In this document: in pieces, positions 40,631-57,898 of the stretch | Position numbering within the stretch: the stretch's first letter is position 1 | How the letters are laid out: every line of letters starts with the position of its first letter | The notes under the pieces: model-generated | Databases searched by the model: none | The model's input: only the letters and a program-made list of their open reading frames with translations | What the model was told of the DNA's origin: nothing | Assembly (NCBI RefSeq): GCF_001648175.1 | Contig: NZ_CP015243.1 | Location: 2,170,001-2,234,000 of the forward strand | From: Halotalea alkalilenta | Lineage (GTDB): Bacteria; Pseudomonadota; Gammaproteobacteria; Pseudomonadales; Halomonadaceae | Reading direction: 5' to 3' | Length of the DNA: 64,000 nucleotides | Position numbers and translations under genes: made by a program

Positions 40631-40935
40631 CCTTTACACTGGTTTTCACGAGGGCGGTTCTACGAACTCACTACGAACGGATATGTAAGTTCCGCCACTA
40701 CGGGTTGGTCGAGGGATCTGTACGACGCATCTCTCTCCCGGGTTTTCGCGCAATTCCTAAGCCGGCCTTGAGCCGGCATCCCTCCCTTTTGGTCTAGCAG
40801 CAGGCGCATCGATTCGCGTGCTAAGCTGGGCCGAACCGTGGCTTGCGTGCTTGGCGGCATGCGGCCGGCTTACTGGGATCGCCCCCAGCAGAGGGGCGGC
40901 GAATGTCCGGTATCGACGCTGGATGAGGAGAGGTG
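40631..40935. other. intergenic region before the formate dehydrogenase operon
   Basis: About 305 bp with no supported gene. GCCGG and CCGGC around 40760-40778 can form a hairpin followed by a pyrimidine-rich stretch, perhaps ending the upstream transcript. Promoter elements for the fdh operon must lie here, but none was convincing. Confidence 0.4.
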
Positions 40936-43900
40936 ATGAGTATCAGAGTGACCCGACGAGGGTTTTTCAAGCTCGGGGCGGCGGGGGTGGCAAGCTCGAG
41001 CATGGCGATGATGGGCTTCGCCCCGGAGGCCGCCGCGGCTTCCGTGCGCCAGTTCAAGCTCACCCACACCCGCGAGACCCGCAACATCTGCACCTACTGC
41101 TCGGTAGGCTGCGGTGTGTTGATCTACAGCCGGGGCGATGCGGCGAAGAACGCCCATCAGCAGATCATCCATATCGAAGGCGACCCCGACCATCCGGTCA
41201 GCCGCGGCGCGCTGTGCCCCAAGGGCGCGGGGCTGCTCGACTTCGTCAAGAGCCCGTCGCGGCTCAGGTTCCCCGAGGTGCGCGAGCCCGGCACCAGCGA
41301 GTGGAAGCGGATTTCCTGGGATGAGGCGCTGACGCGCATCGCCCGTCACATCAAGACCGACCGCGACGCCAACTTCGTCACCACCGACGAGCAGGGCCAC
41401 ACGGTCAACCACTGGGCCACGACCGGCTTTCTCGCTGCCTCGGCTTCTTCCAACGAATCCGGCTATCTGACCCACAAGGTGGTCAGGAGCCTCGGCATGG
41501 TCGCATTCGACAACCAGGCGCGCGTCTGACACGGACCGACGGTGGCAGGTCTTGCCCCAACATTCGGTCGCGGTGCGATGACCAATCACTGGGTCGATAT
41601 TCGCAACGCCGACGTCATCCTGGTCATGGGTGGCAACGCCGCGGAGGCGCATCCAGTGGGATTCCGCTGGGTCACCGAGGCGAAGGAGCACAATAACGCC
41701 ACGCTGATGGTGGTCGACCCGCGCTTCACGCGGACCGCGTCGGTGGCGGACTACTACGCGCCGATCAGGACCGGTACCGACATCACCTTCCTCGGTGGGT
41801 TGATCAAGTACCTGATCGACAACGACCGGATCCAGCGCGAGTACGTGCTCAACTACACCGACGCAGCGCTCCTGGTCGACGAGGCGTTCGGCTTCGAGGA
41901 TGGCCTGTTCGACGGCTACGACGAGTCGCGCCGCAGCTATGCCAAGGAGAGCTGGCGCTATCAGACCGGTGCGGATGGCTTCGTGCTGCGCGACGATTCC
42001 CTCAGTCACCCGCGCTGCGTGTATCAATTGATGCGCGCGCATTTCGACGCCTACACCCCGGAGATGGTCTCGAGCATCTGCGGTACGCCGGTCGACCGGA
42101 TGCTGCACGTGTGGGAGCAGATGGCCTCCACGGCGACCGAGGATCGTACGCTGACGATCCTCTATGCGCTCGGCTGGACCCAGCACTCGATCGGTGCGCA
42201 GATCATCCGCACCGCGGGGATGGTCCAACTGCTGCTCGGCAACATCGGGCTGCCGGGCGGTGGGGTCAATGCGCTGCGCGGCCACTCCAATATCCAGGGG
42301 CTGACCGACCTGGGGCTGTTGTCGAACCAATTGCCTGGTTACATCGCGGCCCCCGCGGCGATCGAGCAGTCGCTTGCCGGCTTCCTCGACGCCCGGCGCA
42401 AGATGCCCACGGTGGCTGACCAGGTCTCCTACTGGCAGCACATGGACGCCTTCTTCATCAGCCTGATGAAGGCGTGGTACGGCGAGCGTGCCCAGGCCGA
42501 CAACGACTGGTGCTACGGCTGGCTGCCGAAGCTCACCCAGCCCCTGTACGACGTGCTCGACACCTTCGATCGGATGTCGCGAGGCGAGATCTACGGCTAC
42601 TTCTGCCAGGGCTTCAACCCGCTGGCGGCGATCCCCGACAAGAACAAGGTGTCGAAGGCGCTGGCCAAGCTCAAGTACCTGGTCTCGATCGATCCGCTCA
42701 ATACCGAGACCGCCGAGTTCTGGCGCAATGCCGGCGAGTTCAACGACGTCGACCCCAGCGAGATCCAGACCGAGGTGTTCCGCCTGCCGGCCAACTCGTT
42801 CGCCGAGGACGAGGGCTCGATCGTCAACAGCGCCCGCTGGCTGCAGTGGCACTACGTCGCCGCCGATGGTCCGGGCGAGTCGATGCCGGACACCCACATC
42901 ATCGGTGCGTTGTTCCACCGGGTGCGTGAGCTCTATGCCAGCGAAGGCGGCGCGTTCCCTGAGCCGATCCTGAACCTTGCCTGGGACTACAAGCAGCCCG
43001 AGCGTCCGGAAGCCGACGAGATCGCGCGCGAGTTCAACGGCCGCGCGCTTGCCGATATCCGCGACCCGAACGGTGTGCTGGTGCGCCGGGCCGGCGAGCA
43101 GCTCTCAGGGTTCAGCGAGCTGCGCGACGACGGCTCGACGCTCTCCGGCTGCTGGGTCTTCGCCGGTGCCTGGACCGAGCAGGGCAACCAGATGGCCAAC
43201 CGCGACAACTCGGACCCCTACGGCAATGGCCAGACGCTCGGCTGGGCCTGGGCGTGGCCCGCCAATCGGCGGATCCTCTACAACCGTGCCGCGGCGCGGC
43301 CGGACGGCACACCCTGGGCGCCGCGCAAGGCGTTGATCTGGTGGAACGAGGCCCAGTCGCGCTGGGTCGGCTCCGACGTGCCCGATTTCCCAGCCAACTC
43401 GCCACCGGCGCTCGGCCAGATGCCATTCATCATGAATCCCGAGGGGGTGGGGCACCTGTTCGCCGGCCAGAGCATGAACGATGGGCCGTTCCCGACCCAC
43501 TACGAGCCGTTCGAGAGCCCGGTGCCGGAGGGCAACCTGCTGTTCCCGCGCAAGGAAAAGGTGAAGAACAACCCCGCGGCGCGGATCTTCGACGCCGACC
43601 GCGCGATGCTCGGGGATTGGCAGGAGTTCCCTCACGCCGCGACCACCTATCGGCTCACCGAGCACTTCCACTACTGGACCAAGCACTCGCATCTCAATGC
43701 GGTGGTCCAGCCGGAGCAGTTCGTCGAGATCGGCGAGGCGCTCGGCAATGAGTTGGGGATCCGCGCGGGCGATTGGGTCAAGGTGTCGTCGAAGCGCGGC
43801 TACATCCGCGCGGTGGCGGTGGTGACCAAGCGGATCAGGGCGATCACCGTGGGTGGCCGGATCGTCCACCAGGTCGGTATCCCGATCCACTGGGGTTTCC

Positions 43901-44037
43901 TCGGCCAGGCGCGCAAGGGCTTTCTCGCCAACACGCTGACCCCTTCGGTCGGCGACGCCAACACCCAGACGCCGGAGTACAAGTCGTTCCTGGTCAAGGT
44001 CGAGAAGGACGATGCCGATCATGGAGGTGAACGATGA
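40936..44037 (+). CDS. fdnG: formate dehydrogenase-N/O alpha subunit, selenocysteine-containing (internal UGA)
   Basis: Large molybdopterin subunit that oxidises formate to CO2 on the periplasmic side. The ATG start, with GGAGAGG upstream, gives a Tat signal ([15 protein letters not shown]). The N-terminal cluster motif is [14 protein letters not shown]. The frame reaches TGA at 41527-41529 within [16 protein letters not shown], exactly where FdnG/FdoG carry selenocysteine (residue 198 here). The rest ([17 protein letters not shown] onward) continues in frame, giving 1033 residues, full family length. So the TGA is read as Sec, not stop. It overlaps the beta-subunit start by ATGA. An automatic caller would split this gene in two. 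Confidence 0.95.
41530..41569 (+). promoter_or_regulatory. bacterial SECIS element in fdnG
   Basis: Immediately after the UGA, GACCGA (41534-41539) can pair with TCGGTC (41564-41569). Above it an apical GGCA-GGTCT-TGCC hairpin (41544-41556) exposes GGUCU, the SelB-binding loop known from E. coli fdhF and fdnG. Confidence 0.85.
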
Positions 44038-50640: not shown

Positions 50641-50738
50641 GGAAGAGGATCGACCCCCGGTGGGGCGACCGGACTTCAACTCCGTGTGGGGGCTGCCAAG
50701 CAGTCCTCGGTGGGTTCGACTCCCACGCTCTTCCGCCA
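50641..50738 (+). tRNA. selC: tRNA-Sec (anticodon TCA)
   Basis: A 98-nt tRNA with acceptor GGAAGAG/CTCTTCC, anticodon loop CTTCAAC (TCA at 50676-50678) and T-arm GTGGG-TTCGACT-CCCAC. It has a long variable arm (GGGCTGC/GCAGTCC) and encoded CCA. A six-or-more pair D-stem region (CCCC GG TGGGG) is typical of Sec-tRNA. The expected eighth acceptor pair is G-G, and the outer anticodon-stem pair is C-T, both unusual. The 3' end is the apparent attachment site of the island. Confidence 0.95.
50724..50738 (+). repeat. attL-like sequence: selC 3' end
   Basis: CACGCTCTTCCGCCA, the last 15 bases of selC, recurs with one T missing at 56540-56553. The pair brackets the AT-rich island, as expected for integrase-mediated insertion into a tRNA 3' end. 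Confidence 0.6.
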
Positions 50739-51697
50739 TCACTCCCCTCTACCGTTCGTCCCGAGCGGCGTCCTTACGCGCCGAAGCGGCGATTCGTCTC
50801 GGCATTGATGGACGCCTGTCGAGGGATACAGACGAAGCCCCGGCGTTAGCTTGCTCGAGGTGATTCAATACCCGCTATAAGCTTATGGTTGGAGCGATAG
50901 GCTAGGCGCCGCGCGCTGATCGACCGGCTGTCACTTCGGTATCCCTGTGCCATCTTGTGCCCGAAAGGCCGAGAGTGGAGGCGAGACACCACGCACTGCT
51001 ACTGCCAATGGCTCGAAGCGCTGATCGGCTGGTCTCACGCAATAGGGAGGGCGACGCTATCACAGTTCATTCTTCTGTCTAGTGTCAGTACCCTTCGCCT
51101 GGAGCGGGAGCAGGCCATATAGCGCCAGCGCAGCTGATCGCCAACAACATTCACCCCAGGCCTGATCGCGTACTGCACGACCTGTCCTTTGGTGCACCGA
51201 TTTCGCCATCGTGCTGCGACCCTCGCCTGCGCATTTTCGACTCTCCGCCCCGCGTGCGCGCTAAATGGGTGGGTTTTTCGGCAGGCCGGACACGGCCGAA
51301 AGCCGCGCCAGTGCTGGGGCGGCGGACAGGGGAGGGAGGGCAAAAAATTATGCGGATTTATGCGTTTTTTCGAGAAGGGAAGGAAAAATGCGGCGAGAGT
51401 CTGGAAGCTATGCTACAGATTGTGTCAAATTGATTCAAAATGTGTTCTTGTTGAAGCCACGGTGTTCCTGACAGGTCTGACGTTCTAAGCAGCCGCCGCC
51501 TCGGCGAAAGTTGAGAGCTGTTTTATTGGTTTGAATTTGTTAAAGCGTATTTAGACTAAAGAGCGATCTGGGAATAGAGGACTATCACACAAAATGATTC
51601 TCTGGCTTTAGTAGATCCGCGTTATAAATTAAGAATAAGTCTTGAAATTCCGCTGTTCGCAAGAATAATAAGTCCCAGTCGGAGGAATGTTGATTCA
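50739..51697. other. gene-free left part of the island
   Basis: About 960 bp where an integrase would usually lie beside the tRNA. The first 650 bp are GC-rich like the host and contain only short Arg/Pro/Cys-rich open frames without family resemblance. After about 51.4 kb the sequence turns AT-rich and becomes the upstream region of the SIR2 gene. It may be the eroded remains of an integrase module. Confidence 0.45.
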
Positions 51698-52702
51698 ATG
51701 AACTATGAAAAGCAGGCACAAGATTATTATAGTAAGGCTCCTTTAATAATATTAGGAAGCGGAGCTTCTTGCGCCCATGGAATGTCAGGCATGGAAGCAT
51801 TGGCGGAATATTTAGTAAAAAAAATTGACATATCAGACATTTCTGCCAAAGATAAAATCACTTGGTCTGAATTTTGTAGGGTTCTTGAGTCAGGTACCGA
51901 CCTGGAGACAGCTCTCCATCAAGTGGCAACTTCAGAAGAGCTGACATCATGCATAATAAGAAAGACATGGGAGCTTATAAATGCTGAAGATCTAGGAATA
52001 TTTCACGAGTATCTTCAAAATAACCAACGCTTTAGCTTGGGAAAGATAATTTCCCATATGTTTAAATCTAGCATATCTAACATCAATATTATTACTACTA
52101 ACTATGATAGACTCGCTGAGTACGCATGTGAAAGGGAAAAAATCCACCACTATACAGGATTTACTCATGGCTTTTTTCGGCAGTTAAGTCAGCCGAAAGA
52201 AATAAAAGTAAATCGGAAGGTTAACATATGGAAGGTTCATGGATCGATCGACTGGTTTAAGTCTCCTTTAGAAGATATTATAGGATTACCGCATCTTCAA
52301 GACATCCCTAAGGGATATGGCCCTCAAATAGTCACTCCTGGCACACAAAAATATCAGAGAACTCATTTAGAACCTTATCGCTCCATTATTAATAATGCTG
52401 ATCAGGCTATTACAGCAGCGACTTCATATTTATGTATCGGATATGGGTTCAACGATGAGCATATACAGCCTAAACTCATGACCAAATGCGCTCGCCAGGG
52501 TGCACCTATCACTATAGTGACATATGCACTTTCTGATGCTACAAAAAGGTATGTCATTAATGGCGGTATGAGCAACTATTTGGCGATTGAGCGTGGTGAT
52601 CATGACGATCAGTCTGTGGTTTACAGTTCTCTAGAAGAAAATCCTGTAATAGTTGAAAAAAACTTCTGGAACATCGATGGCTACTTAACTCTAATAACGT
52701 AG
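51698..52702 (+). CDS. SIR2-family NADase-like protein of a SIR2-HerA defence system
   Basis: A 334-residue protein with the SIR2 NAD-binding plan: ILGSGAS (residues 18-24), NIITTNYDRLAEYA (TTNYD 133-137) with the conserved Asn and Asp, and IWKVHGSIDWF, whose H181 is the likely catalytic His. SYLCIGYGFNDEHIQ near the C-terminus is the further NAD-site block. In SIR2-HerA systems this subunit destroys NAD+ or attacks nucleic acid when phage is sensed. The start has GGAGGA upstream, though 14 bp away. herA follows after 10 bp. The gene is AT-rich (many AAT, ATA, TTA codons) compared with flanking genes, consistent with transfer. Confidence 0.85.
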   Translation: MNYEKQAQDYYSKAPLIILGSGASCAHGMSGMEALAEYLVKKIDISDISAKDKITWSEFCRVLESGTDLETALHQVATSEELTSCIIRKTWELINAEDLGIFHEYLQNNQRFSLGKIISHMFKSSISNINIITTNYDRLAEYACEREKIHHYTGFTHGFFRQLSQPKEIKVNRKVNIWKVHGSIDWFKSPLEDIIGLPHLQDIPKGYGPQIVTPGTQKYQRTHLEPYRSIINNADQAITAATSYLCIGYGFNDEHIQPKLMTKCARQGAPITIVTYALSDATKRYVINGGMSNYLAIERGDHDDQSVVYSSLEENPVIVEKNFWNIDGYLTLIT

Positions 52703-52712
52703 GAGAGTAATA

Positions 52713-54440
52713 ATGTCTATTTTCAATTTTGTTGATGATGAAGCGCTTGGAAAAGTAGCATCTGTTGACACTGCAACGGTAATTGTTGATGTCGAAAATA
52801 TAAATCAATTGAAAAGGTTACAGGTTAATCATTTGGCTGTATTACAAAGCAGTAGGCCTGGCCAGCATTTGATTGGTCTAATTACTCAAGTTACTCGAAA
52901 AAAGTCTGCTGCTGAAGAGTTAAATGATGGTATTGTCGATCAATATGCGGAACTCAATCTTTGCAGAATCGCATTAATAGGGACATTATTAGATCGCGAT
53001 GGGAATAAAGAGAATGTGTTTCGTCGTACCTTAGAGTCTGTTCCAGAAATAGACGCCAATTGTTTTTCTTTAGAAGGAGATAATCTTACCGGCTTCATGA
53101 GAACCCTGTCGAGTATAGCTGCAGATAAAAACTCATTGACGCTGGGAAGATATACTCTTGATGAACATGCTGTGGCTTATTTGAATGGAAATAAATTTTT
53201 CCAGCGACATGCTTTTATTGGTGGTAGTACAGGATCCGGAAAGTCATGGACAACCGCTAGGATTATTGAGCAGATGGAGAGGCTGGACTCAGCAAATGCG
53301 ATAATCTTTGATCTTCATGGTGAATATTCACCTTTGGTAGGCGACGGCATTCAACAGCTTAAAGTGGCAGGCCCAGCCGATGTGGAGAGTGCGCGCACAC
53401 TAGATGAAGGCATAGTTTTCTTGCCCTATTGGTTGCTTTCTTATGAAGCATTAGTTTCTATGTTTGTCGACCGTAGTGACCAGAATGCGCCCAATCAAGC
53501 CATGATTATGGCAAGGGAAATAAACCAAGCAAAAAGGAAATACCTTGAAGATAGAAATTATGTGGATATATTATCACATTTTACCGTTGATAGTCCCGTT
53601 CCATTCGATCTGAAGGAGCTCTTAGCAAGATTGAACTCTATAAATACAGAGATGGTCGCGGGTGCAAGAGGAGATAAACAAGGCGAATTCTATGGAAAAC
53701 TGGCAAGAATGATTTCTAGGCTAGAGAATAAAATTTCTGATAGACGTTTGGGTTTTTTGTTTAGTGGCGGTGAAGATGTTTTAGATTTTTCATGGTTGAA
53801 CAAGCTTTCTGCTAATTTAGTAGGGTGTACTTCAGAAAATAATATTGCAGGAATAAAAATAGTTGATTTTTCAGAAGTTCCATCAGATATTCTCCCATTA
53901 ATCGTTTCACTGGTTGCACGTGTCGCATTCTCTATCCAGCAGTGGACTCCCTCTGAATTGCGCCATCCAATAGCGTTGCTATGTGATGAGGCTCATCTCT
54001 ATATACCACAAAGAAGTATGGCGGATTCTGCCAATAATATATCAATTGATATATTTGAAAGAATAGCTAAAGAGGGTAGGAAATATGGCCTGAGCCTTGT
54101 GGTTATAAGCCAAAGGCCTTCAGAGGTTAATAAAACCATACTTAGTCAATGCAGCAATTTTATTTCAATGAGATTAACCAATGCTGAAGACCAAGGGGTA
54201 ATTAAAAAGCTGCTTCCAGATAGCTTGGGTGGTTTTGGAGATATTCTCCCTACTTTGGATACAGGAGAAGCATTAATGGTTGGCGACGCAAGTTTACTCC
54301 CTAGTCGAATAAGGGTAGACGAGCCAGCGAATAGACCCAATAGTGGAACTGTAGATTTTTGGGACGAGTGGCAGGCACCTGTTGAGGAACATCGACTTAC
54401 AGCGGCAATCGATAATTGGAGAAAGCAAAATATTCAATAG
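52713..54440 (+). CDS. HerA-type DNA translocase ATPase (SIR2-HerA partner)
   Basis: A 575-residue FtsK/HerA-fold ATPase. The N-terminal HAS-barrel-like domain (ALGKVASVDTATVIVDVEN, HLIGLITQVTRK) is followed by Walker A GSTGSGKS at residues 171-178, then IIFDLHGEYSPLVG. Walker B LLCDEAHLY has D425 and E426. A sensor and arginine-finger region reads GLSLVVISQRPSEVNKTIL. The C-terminus (LPSRIRVDEPANRP) matches the DUF853/HerA clamp. A ribosome site AGGAG stands before the ATG. HerA hexamers are expected to assemble with the SIR2 protein and control its activity. No NurA nuclease gene is adjacent, so a repair HerA-NurA pair is unlikely. Confidence 0.87.
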   Translation: MSIFNFVDDEALGKVASVDTATVIVDVENINQLKRLQVNHLAVLQSSRPGQHLIGLITQVTRKKSAAEELNDGIVDQYAELNLCRIALIGTLLDRDGNKENVFRRTLESVPEIDANCFSLEGDNLTGFMRTLSSIAADKNSLTLGRYTLDEHAVAYLNGNKFFQRHAFIGGSTGSGKSWTTARIIEQMERLDSANAIIFDLHGEYSPLVGDGIQQLKVAGPADVESARTLDEGIVFLPYWLLSYEALVSMFVDRSDQNAPNQAMIMAREINQAKRKYLEDRNYVDILSHFTVDSPVPFDLKELLARLNSINTEMVAGARGDKQGEFYGKLARMISRLENKISDRRLGFLFSGGEDVLDFSWLNKLSANLVGCTSENNIAGIKIVDFSEVPSDILPLIVSLVARVAFSIQQWTPSELRHPIALLCDEAHLYIPQRSMADSANNISIDIFERIAKEGRKYGLSLVVISQRPSEVNKTILSQCSNFISMRLTNAEDQGVIKKLLPDSLGGFGDILPTLDTGEALMVGDASLLPSRIRVDEPANRPNSGTVDFWDEWQAPVEEHRLTAAIDNWRKQNIQ

Positions 54441-54606
54441 TCAGGATAAGGTATGTATAAAGATGAAAATAGTAAATAGTTTTACTAGAAAACTTTTCGG
54501 AATATAGCATATGGTTGCTAGCTATTTATATAAATTGTTTGTGTAATGAATTTAGCATGTGAATTGTCAATAAAATACGTTAATTGCACAACTTAAAGGA
54601 GTTTAT

Positions 54607-54966
54607 ATGTCAACCAATTTAGAAAAAGAGGTTGCTTGCCTCCTCTGCGGTATACGAGTGAAAAAATATAATTTACAGCGCCACCAGATCAAGCATCATT
54701 GCCTGAATCCAGATGACTATATATCGTGTTCTTTTTGTCGGTTTCCTGTCAAGAACAAAAATTACCATAAGCATATTAAGTGCCATCTTAAAGATATTAC
54801 GATCAAATCCGGTCGGACAAAGCTTTGTGATATGATGCCTGCTCAACGTCGTCGCTGGCTTGATAATCTTGACCGACCGGATCGAGAATACAGTGAAGAC
54901 GCGTTATCACCTGGACGATATCTCTTAGGTGGTAGTTATGGGCTTGGTAAAAACCGGAAAAACTAA
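54607..54966 (+). CDS. small protein with two tandem C2H2 zinc fingers, function unknown
   Basis: A 119-residue protein with two CX2CX11HX3H motifs exactly 30 residues apart: C11, C14, H26, H30 and C41, C44, H56, H60 (CLLCGIRVKKYNLQRHQIKH; CSFCRFPVKNKNYHKHIKCH). Basic residues around the second finger suit nucleic-acid binding. The C-terminal half is basic and Arg-rich (MPAQRRRWLDNLDRP). The ribosome site AAAGGAG is strong. It lies 166 bp after herA on the same strand, within the same AT-rich island. It is not MucR/Ros, whose single finger has different spacing. It might regulate or assist the SIR2-HerA pair, but that is inferred only from position. Confidence 0.75.
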   Translation: MSTNLEKEVACLLCGIRVKKYNLQRHQIKHHCLNPDDYISCSFCRFPVKNKNYHKHIKCHLKDITIKSGRTKLCDMMPAQRRRWLDNLDRPDREYSEDALSPGRYLLGGSYGLGKNRKN

Positions 54967-55505
54967 AGGGAGTAAGGTAAACAAATTGTCAAACTTTCAT
55001 TAAATAAATTATTTATGACGCCTGAATCTATTTAGAATATTTTGTAGCTGGGCTATTTACATGTTCAGTCTTGGATTCTGTTGACCAAGTCTGGCTTAAT
55101 AGGTATTAATTAGATCCTTGAGTTACTATTAATCCAGTCTGTCCAGAAAGGAAAATGGTTTGACTATATTTAAATAATATTTTGACTCCACAGTGTAGCC
55201 ATGCTCGATGGCAGGAGATCGAAGGTTGTTGGCATGACATGGCTCATGCGCTTTTCGATAGGGTCAAGCGAGCGCGTGGTAGGGAAGAATCCGCAAGCGA
55301 TTCTATGCTTTCTTTACGTGTGCAAAGACATAAGCGGACTTGATGAAATTTATTAGGTATATTCGTGACCTGATATTTCATTAGGTATATTGATAGGTAT
55401 ATTTGGTATGGAAAAAAATTTCATTCCTCCATTAATCAATGGGTTGCATGCTTGGTTATCATCCCGCCAGGCCTGTATTCTTACCTCGCAGATCATCGCG
55501 AGGCA
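54967..55505. other. AT-rich gene-free stretch of the island
   Basis: About 540 bp between the zinc-finger gene and the transposase remnant. No open frame resembles a known family. It contains the GGTATAT repeat cluster at 55344-55403. Confidence 0.4.
55344..55403 (+). repeat. direct repeats with core TAGGTATATT
   Basis: TTAGGTATATT occurs at 55353 and 55381, and ATAGGTATATT at 55393. The first two are part of longer near-copies, TGAAATTTATTAGGTATATT and TGATATTTCATTAGGTATATT, spaced about 28 bp apart. Two looser GGTATAT copies lie at about 56456-56475, on the far side of the transposase remnant. They could be protein-binding sites such as iterons. Confidence 0.5.
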
Positions 55506-55549
55506 AAAAGCCCCGAAGAACAGCTAATTCGCTGGCTTTCGGGGCTTTT
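55506..55549. terminator. terminator-like hairpin
   Basis: A 12-bp stem AAAAGCCCCGAA/TTCGGGGCTTTT around a 20-base loop. It lies just beyond the broken end of the transposase and could terminate in either direction. Confidence 0.55.
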
Positions 55550-55579
55550 CCATTGTGGGCATTCCTTGGCATTCGAGCC

Positions 55580-56378
55580 TCGGAGATGCGCTGATAGCGC
55601 GTCTAGGCTAGCGTAGTGGAAGGCCTGCGTCGTGGCCTCCTTCAGCGTCCGATTCATCCGCTCGACTTGGCCGTTGGTCCACGGATGATAGGCCTGGGTC
55701 CGCCGATGCTCGATGCCGGTGGCAAATGAGATCGAAACGATGGGGCTTGTATGTCTCGGTCCTCGGACGCTTGGCGAACTGCACACCGTTGTCGGTCAGT
55801 ACCGTGTGAACACGGTACGGTAGTTGGGACAGCGTTTCCTAGAGAAAGGCAGCGGCCTCGTTTCGGCCCGCTTGGCGGTTCAGCTTGGCGTGCACGAACT
55901 TCGAGGTACGATCGACGGCGACGAACAGATACGCCTTCCCTTCGCCAGTGCGGATCTCATTGAAATCGATGTGCAGATAACCGATCCGATAGGATTTGAA
56001 GCGTTTGGGGGTGGGCTGTTCATGGCTGTCTTCCGGCAGCCGGCTGATCTCATGACGTTGGTAGAGTCGATGGAGTTTCGCCCGGGTCAGGTGCGGGATG
56101 AATCGCTGCAAGGTGAACAGACAATCATCGAGCGGGTGCAAGGTCCGTCGACGAAACTCGAGCGCCGCGCTTTCCTCCAGCGGTGCTAAGGAGTGTGAGC
56201 GAGGGCGTTTGGGTCCCATGGCCACGTCCTCGACCGAGTCCCGTGCACGCCATTTGCGAACGGTCTTGGGATTGAGGCCATAGCGGCGGCTCAATGCCGC
56301 GACCGAAGCCTTCGATCGCTGTATTTCTTTTCGGATGGCGTGCACGGTCTTGGCGCGTGAGTGAAGAATCTGAGCCAT
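55580..56378 (-). pseudogene. IS481-family transposase remnant
   Basis: From MAQILHSRAKTVHAIRKEIQ the frame shows an HTH (RYGLNPKTVRKWRARD) and the start of a DDE integrase core (YRIGYLHIDFNEIRTGEGK, FVAVDRTSKFVHAKL). It is then stopped by TAG after RNEAAAFL. TVLTDNGVQFAKR, with the second Asp, follows in the same frame. After a frameshift, AYHPWTNGQVERMNRTLKEA supplies the Glu region. Homology ends near SLDALSAHLR, so the C-terminus is missing. A sequence like an IS end (TGTAGGGGATTGTGGTATCA) lies upstream on the minus strand, ending at 56419. It is inactive. Confidence 0.85.
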
Positions 56379-56399
56379 GGGTCCTCTGCAGACATAGGT

Positions 56400-56419
56400 T
56401 GATACCACAATCCCCTACA
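56400..56419 (-). repeat. surviving end of the IS481-like element
   Basis: Read on the minus strand, TGTAGGGGATTGTGGTATCA starts 41 bp before the transposase ATG, where a terminal inverted repeat is expected. No inverted partner was found on the other side, consistent with loss of that end. Confidence 0.5.
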
Positions 56420-56539
56420 CCTAGACTCTGATTTACCGACTCTTCAAATATTTATGGTATATGAAAGGGTATATTACGATTGGTTTGCATCGTATTTAAT
56501 GCCATTAAAATCAATGTGTTATAGTGCATTGTGGCATCT

Positions 56540-56553
56540 CACGCTCTCCGCCA
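56540..56553 (+). repeat. attR-like near-copy of the selC 3' end
   Basis: CACGCTCTCCGCCA matches the last 15 bases of selC except for one missing T. Its place at the change from AT-rich to host-like sequence makes it the likely right boundary of the island. Confidence 0.6.
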
Positions 56554-56863
56554 CATTGCTGTTCTGAATCATTGGGTTGTGATCATATTTCTGGGTTCTT
56601 GGGACTTGTCTGGGGCAAATCTCCTTTGAGTGCTGTGTCCAGCCCCACCATCTCCATGTGGCTTTGAGCGCCATCCAGCCACCTGGAGTGGGTGTACAAG
56701 ATCACCTCTATGCTTTGGCCCAGTTGCCTTGCGCAAAATGCCGGCATCAAAGCCCCCACCTTTTTCGATCTTTGCTTGATCCTCGCCAACCTTGGCAATC
56801 CCTTCGCTAACCATGAGAATCCAGGCTCCGATGTTTTCCACCCCTTGGATGGAGGGAGCGGCG
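56554..56863. other. region upstream of selD, no gene recognised
   Basis: About 310 bp. A minus-strand open frame here ([20 protein letters not shown] and onward) resembles no family I know and runs antisense to the selD start, so it is left out. The selD ribosome site GGAGGGAGCGGCG is at its right end. Confidence 0.4.
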
Positions 56864-57898
56864 ATGAGTGAGCCGATCCGCTTGACCCAGTACAGCCACG
56901 GTGCGGGCTGCGGCTGCAAGATTTCGCCCAAGGTGCTGGAGGTGATCCTCGCTGGCAGTGGGGCGCAGCATCTCGATCCCAGGCTGTGGGTGGGCAATGC
57001 CTCGCGTGACGATGCGGCGGTCTATGCGATCGACGAGGAGCGCGGGGTGATCTCGACCACCGATTTCTTCATGCCGATCGTCGATGATCCGTTCGATTTC
57101 GGTCGGATCGCGGCGACCAATGCGATCAGCGATGTCTATGCGATGGGGGGTGATCCGCTGATGGCGATCGCGATCCTCGGTTGGCCGGTCGACAAGCTCG
57201 GTCCGGAGGTGGCGCGTGAGGTGATTCGCGGTGGACGGGCGGTGTGCGATGAAGCGGGCATTCCGCTGGCTGGGGGCCATTCGATCGATGCGCCGGAGCC
57301 GATCTTCGGTCTCTCGGTCACGGGCCTTGTCGACAAGCGTTGGATCAAGCGCAACGACACCGCCACCGAGGGCTGCCGGCTCTACCTGACCAAGCCGCTG
57401 GGCATTGGCATCCTCACCACCGCGGAGAAGAAGGGCGCGCTCTTCGATCAGGACGTCGGCGTGGCGCGGGATCTGATGTGCACGCTCAACCGCGCGGGCA
57501 GTCGCTTCGCTCGGCTCGAGGGGGTCAGGGCGATGACCGATGTGACCGGCTTCGGCCTGCTCGGGCATCTGGTCGAGATGGCCGACGGCAGCGAGCTCAC
57601 CGCCAGCATCGATGCCGCCAGGGTGCCGGTGCTCGAGCGGGTGGATGAGTACATCGAGCGCGGCTGCGTGCCGGGCGGGACGCAGCGCAACTTCGCAAGC
57701 TACGGTGAGCGGATCGAGGGGCTGAGCGAGCGTCAGCGGCAGGTATTTTGCGATCCGCAGACCAGCGGTGGGCTGCTGGTCGCGGTCGAGCCGCGCGAGG
57801 AGGGGGCGTTCCTGGCGATGGCCGCGGAGCTCGGCCTTGCGCTGGTCTCTTTCGGCGAACTGGTGGCGAAGCGGCGCCATGCGGTCGAGCTGCGTTGA
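56864..57898 (+). CDS. selD: selenide, water dikinase (selenophosphate synthetase) SelD
   Basis: Makes selenophosphate from selenide and ATP, the donor used by SelA. The start [19 protein letters not shown] has GGAGGGAG upstream; it gives 344 residues. The catalytic loop [12 protein letters not shown] uses Cys (C16, C18) with K19, as in E. coli, not Sec. [42 protein letters not shown] and [18 protein letters not shown] are ATP- and metal-site blocks, and [10 protein letters not shown] and [11 protein letters not shown] close the fold. It completes the sel gene set, separated from selC only by the island. Confidence 0.96.

Follow-up and report, generated by a model that had tools for sequence, protein, structure and literature searches.

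We analysed a stretch of 64,000 nucleotides of the Halotalea alkalilenta genome (contig NZ_CP015243.1, positions 2,170,001 to 2,234,000, referred to here as the window), in which two adjacent genes encode a SIR2 protein and a HerA ATPase. The SIR2 gene (51698..52702, + strand) encodes a predicted NADase effector of 334 amino acids (aa) and the HerA gene (52713..54440, + strand) encodes an ATPase of 575 aa; both assignments draw on the open reading frames (ORFs), Pfam, PADLOC, alignments and fold comparison. The genes lie 10 bp apart on the same strand, and a Shine-Dalgarno-like sequence stands ahead of each. Both genes are intact and under constraint: in comparisons with four relatives, the proportion of nonsynonymous sites that differ was 0.16-0.20 for SIR2 and 0.09-0.13 for HerA, and that of synonymous sites was 0.79-0.97, which is near saturation. 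A previous reading of the letters and their ORFs (the sequence-only reading) had placed the pair at this position and spacing, had assigned the first protein to SIR2 and the second to HerA-fold ATPases from their motifs, and had proposed profile and defence-system searches; both proteins were matched in these searches, and the motifs it named were found to be conserved.

The first protein contains a SIR2_2 domain (Pfam, E = 4.3e−13) and matched the PADLOC SIR2 model PDLC04087 with 461 bits over residues 2-333. Its predicted fold was most similar to the SIR2 subunits of solved SIR2-HerA systems, so that Pfam, PADLOC and fold agree in placing it within SIR2. In an alignment of 51 sequences including the query (39 of 120 listed proteins and 12 genome loci, the other 50 members being 33-76% identical to the query), the predicted catalytic residues Asn135 of the TTNYD motif (codon 52100..52102, + strand) and His181 of the VHGS motif (codon 52238..52240, + strand) were unchanged throughout. 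The second protein contains a DUF87 domain (Pfam, E = 1.8e−26) and matched the PADLOC HerA model PDLC04105 with 800 bits over residues 1-573. Among 33 aligned HerAs, its Walker A motif GSTGSGKS (residues 171-178; 53223..53246, + strand) was invariant except for S175, which was nearly so, and within its Walker B motif LLCDEAHLY (residues 422-430; 53976..54002, + strand) the residues C424-D425-E426-A427-H428 were invariant.

We examined 47 genome loci encoding relatives of the window HerA and found a SIR2 match immediately upstream in 46 of them; the 47th (L082) begins within HerA at a contig end. The hosts include Pseudomonas, Acinetobacter, Vibrio, Bradyrhizobium, Nitrosomonas and metagenome-assembled genomes, among others. 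Among the kin of the window's host the HerA gene is sporadic, with any match at E ≤ 1e−20 in 6 of 58 genomes and a match at E ≤ 1e−40 in 12 of 369 genomes of the class (own genome included in both counts). Outside the host's own genome, the only match above 36% identity among the 58 was in a congeneric draft genome, G001 (46%), where it lies at another locus. The comparison with related genomes suggested by the sequence-only reading thus did not place the pair at a core locus. Of the two outcomes that this reading had named as refuting it, a first protein outside SIR2 and a core locus for the pair in all relatives, neither was observed. Matches to the SIR2 protein were found in 99 plasmid records, 76 of which cover ≥ 80% of the query. 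A phage origin of the pair was rejected. The window SIR2 had no match in the phage collection; one viral contig (L137) encodes a HerA relative; and the left flank of the pair (50741-51700) had no match among plasmids or phages.

The neighbours of related pairs are rich in defence genes. In total, 120 proteins flanking 20 SIR2-HerA loci matched 93 PADLOC families at E ≤ 1e−30, and the 25 flanking families listed include Hachiman, Zorya, JetA, Gabija, type I and type III restriction-modification, DRT and LmuA; SoFic was matched in the first member. As a control, 41 window ORFs outside the island matched no PADLOC family. It should be noted that this comparison is qualitative, as families were counted and the control is smaller and comes from another genome. 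The congener G001 has a second, different SIR2-HerA pair (361 and 597 aa; L109:5917-15592), next to which a subunit of a type I restriction system and an integrase of phage type are encoded. In genome G318 (L134:4928-8957, − strand) the HerA match is limited to residues 234-573 and ORFs lie between it and an upstream SIR2, so this pair looks interrupted.

The pair in the window is located in an AT-rich island (GC of 0.39 for 51500-55480 vs 0.63 for the whole window) which sits exactly between selC, encoding tRNA-Sec (50641..50738, + strand, found by ARAGORN), and selD (56792..57898, + strand). The sequence-only reading had proposed an AT-rich island at a tRNA gene, and the comparison with the congener bore this out: co-linear homology with G001 ends at 50740, two bases beyond the 3′ end of selC on the left attachment side of the island, and restarts at 56746, ahead of selD, on another G001 contig. 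A second selD-like gene, 52% identical, is present elsewhere in the same genome (G000:C1:89045-90004). Between selC and the cargo, in the window as in G001, lies the relic of a backbone gene, reduced to its 3′ end (50934..51137, + strand; 82% identity over the matched parts); the full copy of this gene encodes a 305-aa protein in another element of the same genome (L168:7508-8425, − strand). Next comes the left border of the slot that holds the cargo (51138..51478, strand unassigned). This border is conserved, with 81-85% identity between copies, and can be aligned in four copies as far as 51450-51478, with divergence beyond. The right end of the island (55381..55584, strand unassigned) matches, at 75-81%, a repeat found at both ends of that other element. 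Inside this right end is an IS481-like insertion sequence (IS; 55584..56421, − strand) with its transposase in two ORFs (55493-55786 and 55839-56408). A candidate attR is a direct but degenerate repeat of the 3′ end of selC (56533..56553, + strand; 6 edits in 26); when both strands of the window were searched, a single further hit was obtained apart from selC itself. The sequence GGTATATT occurs four times in the window, all at the right end of the island (55356, 55384, 55396 and, past the IS, 56468), and also at both ends of the complete element described below. As a general mark of such elements it was rejected, being present in the window, L168 and L169 but absent from L107 and L186. No integrase or replication genes were found in the window copy, of which only the backbone-gene end and the right end remain.

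The complete element, L168, lies beside tRNA-Arg(CCG) at about 394.07-406.28 kb of the same genome (about 12 kb). Its genes are, in order, those for a tyrosine integrase, for Toprim and DUF927 proteins and for the 305-aa protein, followed by an AT-rich cargo, and it is bounded at both ends by a repeat of about 160 bp (78-89% identity in its parts). The cargo (L168:4643-6847, − strand, about 394.6-396.8 kb; GC of 0.35-0.36) comprises genes for a 493-aa AAA ATPase and a 230-aa protein, with a weak PADLOC match (mad8, 19 bits) and distant matches on 11 plasmid records. By its integrase, primase/helicase module, tRNA site and size, L168 can be classed from its gene content as a satellite-like integrative element. 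Its DUF927 protein shares 61-64% identity with the counterparts in vB_Pae_U10, pHS87b and phiAH14b, which are small Pseudomonas elements.

The slot occupied by SIR2-HerA in the window is filled differently in other copies: with DRT3 reverse transcriptases, with a different SIR2 protein or with the AAA ATPase. At selC in G001 (L107) the cargo consists of a 261-aa ORF, which had no family match, followed by a gene for an 850-aa SIR2_2-domain protein (L107:10016-12568, − strand). The latter resembles the N-termini of ThsA, LmuA and Dsr1 and has a weak PIN match; none of the 136 matching plasmid records covers 80% of it, and the six listed match its N-terminal part only. Congener contig C32 (L169) retains both slot borders, with an IS481-like copy interrupting the right end at the identical position, around DRT3 genes (L169:2424-5808, − strand; Drt3b 520 bits), Drt3a and Drt3b each being split into two ORFs. 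A join of C32 with contig C25, which would have placed DRT3 beside selD, was rejected because both contigs start with an identical IS of 737 bp that points the same way.

A search of 146 genomes found the 305-aa protein in 7, the window's own genome among them. In all five further genomes of the family the order of integrase, BB312, Toprim, DUF927 and BB305 homologues is kept, and four of the five have the tRNA-Arg site, the remaining stretch (L181) starting inside the integrase. AT-rich ORFs (GC of 0.35-0.47) lie downstream of the backbone in four of these genomes, and none in L185; they follow the backbone directly in L183 and lie beyond GC-rich ORFs in L181, L182 and L184. These unnamed gene sets (L182:9790-13487, L183:4871-9580, L184:6548-8807 and L181:11273-12881), one of which includes a 692-aa protein that resembles proteins annotated as DEAD/DEAH helicases, are candidate defence genes. 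We consider it somewhat more probable than otherwise that this bacterial family has a lineage of satellite-like elements, arranged as integrase, regulators, Toprim, DUF927, 305-aa protein, slot and end, and that their one fixed slot exchanges defence systems as wholes (SIR2-HerA, DRT3, the 850-aa SIR2 protein, the AAA ATPase pair and, as candidate new systems, several unnamed AT-rich sets).

The island might instead be an ordinary defence island of unrelated insertions at selC, in which common repeats happened to leave relics that look like shared borders. The relic and IS481 do occur at several sites, short pieces of the relic spacer also have matches in 12 other genomes among the 58, GGTATATT is missing from the two congener copies L107 and L186, and, of the four relatives whose cargo is AT-rich, three have GC-rich ORFs between this cargo and the homologue of the 305-aa protein. 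We nevertheless judge this unlikely: on the left, the relic consists of a single coding gene's end and the spacer downstream of it, four copies of which align to the same point and then diverge; on the right, the sequence corresponds to the repeat that ends a complete element; both borders, including the position of IS481, recur in contig C32 around a different cargo; and the backbone order is kept in five further genomes.

Taking the intact and constrained genes, the SIR2 fold of SIR2-HerA type, the conserved catalytic residues, the conserved pairing, the selC insertion and the shared slot borders together, we conclude that the genes very probably constitute a SIR2-HerA (Nezha-type) abortive-infection pair carried as cargo by a decayed satellite-like integrative element at selC. 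The defence role put forward in the sequence-only reading is thereby supported, by extrapolation from characterised relatives. As described for those systems in two reports (PMC11559045, PMC12198126), which cover a 12:6 assembly, HerA-dependent activation, NAD+ hydrolysis and abortive infection, SIR2 would form a single ring-shaped complex with HerA (12:6 in E. coli), the HerA ATPase would mediate the response to a phage cue, the activated SIR2 would hydrolyse NAD+ and the infected cell would stop ahead of phage release. The pair may have entered the element by cargo exchange between two fixed borders, the 305-aa gene end on the left and the attachment-type end on the right, with the integrase and replication genes lost from the window copy after that exchange.

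Several points weigh against this conclusion. The window SIR2 is only about 16-18% identical to the solved SIR2 chains, and it scored 29.8 bits against a cut-off of 500 bits for the NCBIfam equivalog SIR2_antiphage; HerA scored 159 bits against 800 for HerA_antiphage and 302 against 850 for HerA_antiphage_2. As these cut-offs were not reached, the functional extrapolation runs across subtypes: the window pair belongs to another subtype than the NCBIfam equivalog models, which represent one subtype, and the broader PADLOC set matches it. The predicted HerA model is of moderate quality (pLDDT 74) and its best fold matches are DUF4297-type HerAs. Short partner ORFs were found upstream in at least five of the related loci (L054, L066, L079, L084 and L085), where the SIR2 or HerA frame is interrupted, so some pairs in relatives are probably broken. 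Lastly, the history of the window element is read from fragments, and most related SIR2-HerA loci are without such an element backbone within the available flanking DNA. A tRNA gene was found in 4 of 44 scanned loci and a tmRNA gene in 2 more (3 short loci of the 47 being excluded), relatives of the element integrase in 3 of 50 loci (L046, L048 and L070), and relatives of the element replication genes in 1 of 50 (L063, from Azotobacter beijerinckii), where Toprim/DUF927-type replication genes precede the SIR2-HerA pair and the integrase was not found. Given these low counts, a tRNA or satellite setting was rejected as a rule for this SIR2-HerA subtype.

The HerA protein is nearer to the HerAs of DUF4297 systems than to those of the characterised SIR2-HerA pairs. 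By sequence, the closest solved HerAs are those of DUF4297 systems (E = 3.8e−69, 3.7e−68 and 3.5e−63), and those of SIR2 systems rank behind them (8wiv 3.3e−46, 8j4u 2.1e−28 and 8yho 7.4e−26). Entries 8xau/8xav are described as DUF4297-HerA (PMC11291478), and the partner chains in entries 9c1m and 8ziq carry the name DUF4297. The alignment to the DUF4297-type HerAs reaches the very C-terminus, and the tail of the window HerA (about residues 538-573; 54324..54431, + strand) is aligned to their chain ends. Among the SIR2-type HerAs, the alignment to 8wiv extends to residue 572, while those to 8j4u and 8yho end at 554 and 541, short of the tail's end. A hook at the HerA C-terminus of DUF4297-HerA is described by An et al. 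2024 (PMC11291478). The tail was rejected as a hallmark of the DUF4297 type because similar tails are present in the SIR2-partnered L006, L090, L112-L114, L117 and L124. In a tree of 42 of the 79 HerAs, with near-copies and fragments left out, the window clade (22 rows, support 100/100) joined DUF4297-partnered and partnerless HerAs and the SIR2-partnered L090 (98/92), separate from the other SIR2-partnered HerAs; long branches were present. A p-AU of 0.035 was obtained against DUF4297 plus partnerless HerAs; this is a weak test, in which SIR2 and DUF4297 rows already lie on the two sides of one branch. A partner swap, in which a SIR2 effector became joined to a DUF4297-like HerA, is plausible on this sequence comparison.

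This affiliation would also suit a different mode of action, in which killing comes mainly from DNA binding or degradation by a HerA-driven complex, as in the DUF4297-HerA nucleases, with NAD+ loss being secondary; E. coli SIR2-HerA is reported with several enzymatic activities, nuclease included (PMC11559045). We regard it as quite unlikely. The effector at this locus is a SIR2 protein with both catalytic residues invariant rather than a DUF4297 partner, Pfam found a nuclease domain in neither SIR2 nor HerA, and the same report describes the NADase site as required in the Nezha system of V. cholerae. It is very improbable that the genes form a host repair or housekeeping pair, with HerA-NurA-like end resection plus a sirtuin: HerA family membership speaks for this and archaeal HerA-NurA is reported to act in end resection (PMC12977600), but NurA, which the sequence-only reading had also found missing, had 0 matches across the complete genome of 4.39 Mb (in 7 of 14 control genomes this search was positive), and the AT-rich selC insertion is not co-linear with the congener, is sporadic in distribution and has defence-rich neighbours in relatives.

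Read as a SIR2-HerA system, the pair is of a defence kind that is already known, and what it adds is the exchangeable satellite-like cargo setting and the DUF4297-like HerA. It shares with the solved SIR2-HerA (Nezha) systems (E. coli PDB 8j4u, 8su9 and 8sub; the systems of 8w9l/8wld and 8yhx) a SIR2 gene directly upstream of HerA, the SIR2 fold over the whole chain, the catalytic Asn and His, and a HerA with DUF87 domain and Walker motifs, but its SIR2 is shorter (334 vs 381-428 aa) and its HerA is distant. From DUF4297-HerA (8xau/8xav, 8ziq and 9c1m), which has the closest solved HerAs in sequence and fold, it differs in having SIR2 and not the DUF4297 nuclease as effector. Novelty of SIR2-HerA as satellite cargo was withdrawn, as the work of Rousset et al. 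2022 (PMC9122126) names SIR2 and HerA among the contents of P4-like satellite hotspots in E. coli. Like those satellites, the present element is small and integrative, with a single slot of a few kb for exchangeable defence genes; unlike them, it has Toprim and DUF927 replication genes, uses tRNA-Arg and tRNA-Sec sites and occurs in another bacterial family, and its window copy is decayed. The order of integrase, small regulators, Toprim primase and DUF927 helicase is shared with phiAH14b, vB_Pae_U10 and pHS87b, but SIR2-HerA is absent from the listed annotation of these elements. According to PMC4936722, a co-resident phage provided the capsid in which phiAH14b was packaged, and a satellite nature is proposed for it; PMC10111431 mentions DUF927 among satellite primases. 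Our literature search, which had subscription papers mostly outside its reach, found no report of a DUF927 satellite that carries SIR2-HerA.

The pair adds to SIR2-HerA a subtype that is remote from those with solved structures, with a SIR2 effector joined to a HerA nearest to the DUF4297 type, and this combination makes the idea of HerA as a common motor for different effectors directly testable. A slot with three recognisable defence systems (SIR2-HerA, DRT3 and the other SIR2) flags the unnamed AT-rich genes as candidates. If this is true, the slot would serve, on a small scale, as a tool for discovery of the kind known from P4-like satellites, and no such report was found for this element type or host family.

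Downstream of HerA, a 119-aa ORF with a good ribosome-binding site (54607..54966, + strand) encodes two CX2CX11HX3H fingers. It had no homologue in 5.8 billion proteins, where its sole match was itself, and none in 57 relatives, viral contigs or the 47 SIR2-HerA loci. Two such spacings occurred in 0 of 200,000 shuffles and one occurred in 116, and the two identical finger spacings suggest that it is a real protein. As a third component of the system it was rejected for now, being without homologues at any SIR2-HerA locus. Elsewhere in the window, near selA, selB, selC and selD, a large frame (40933-44037, + strand), which we take to be the formate dehydrogenase large subunit (fdh), has a single in-frame TGA at codon 199 that is likely a selenocysteine codon.

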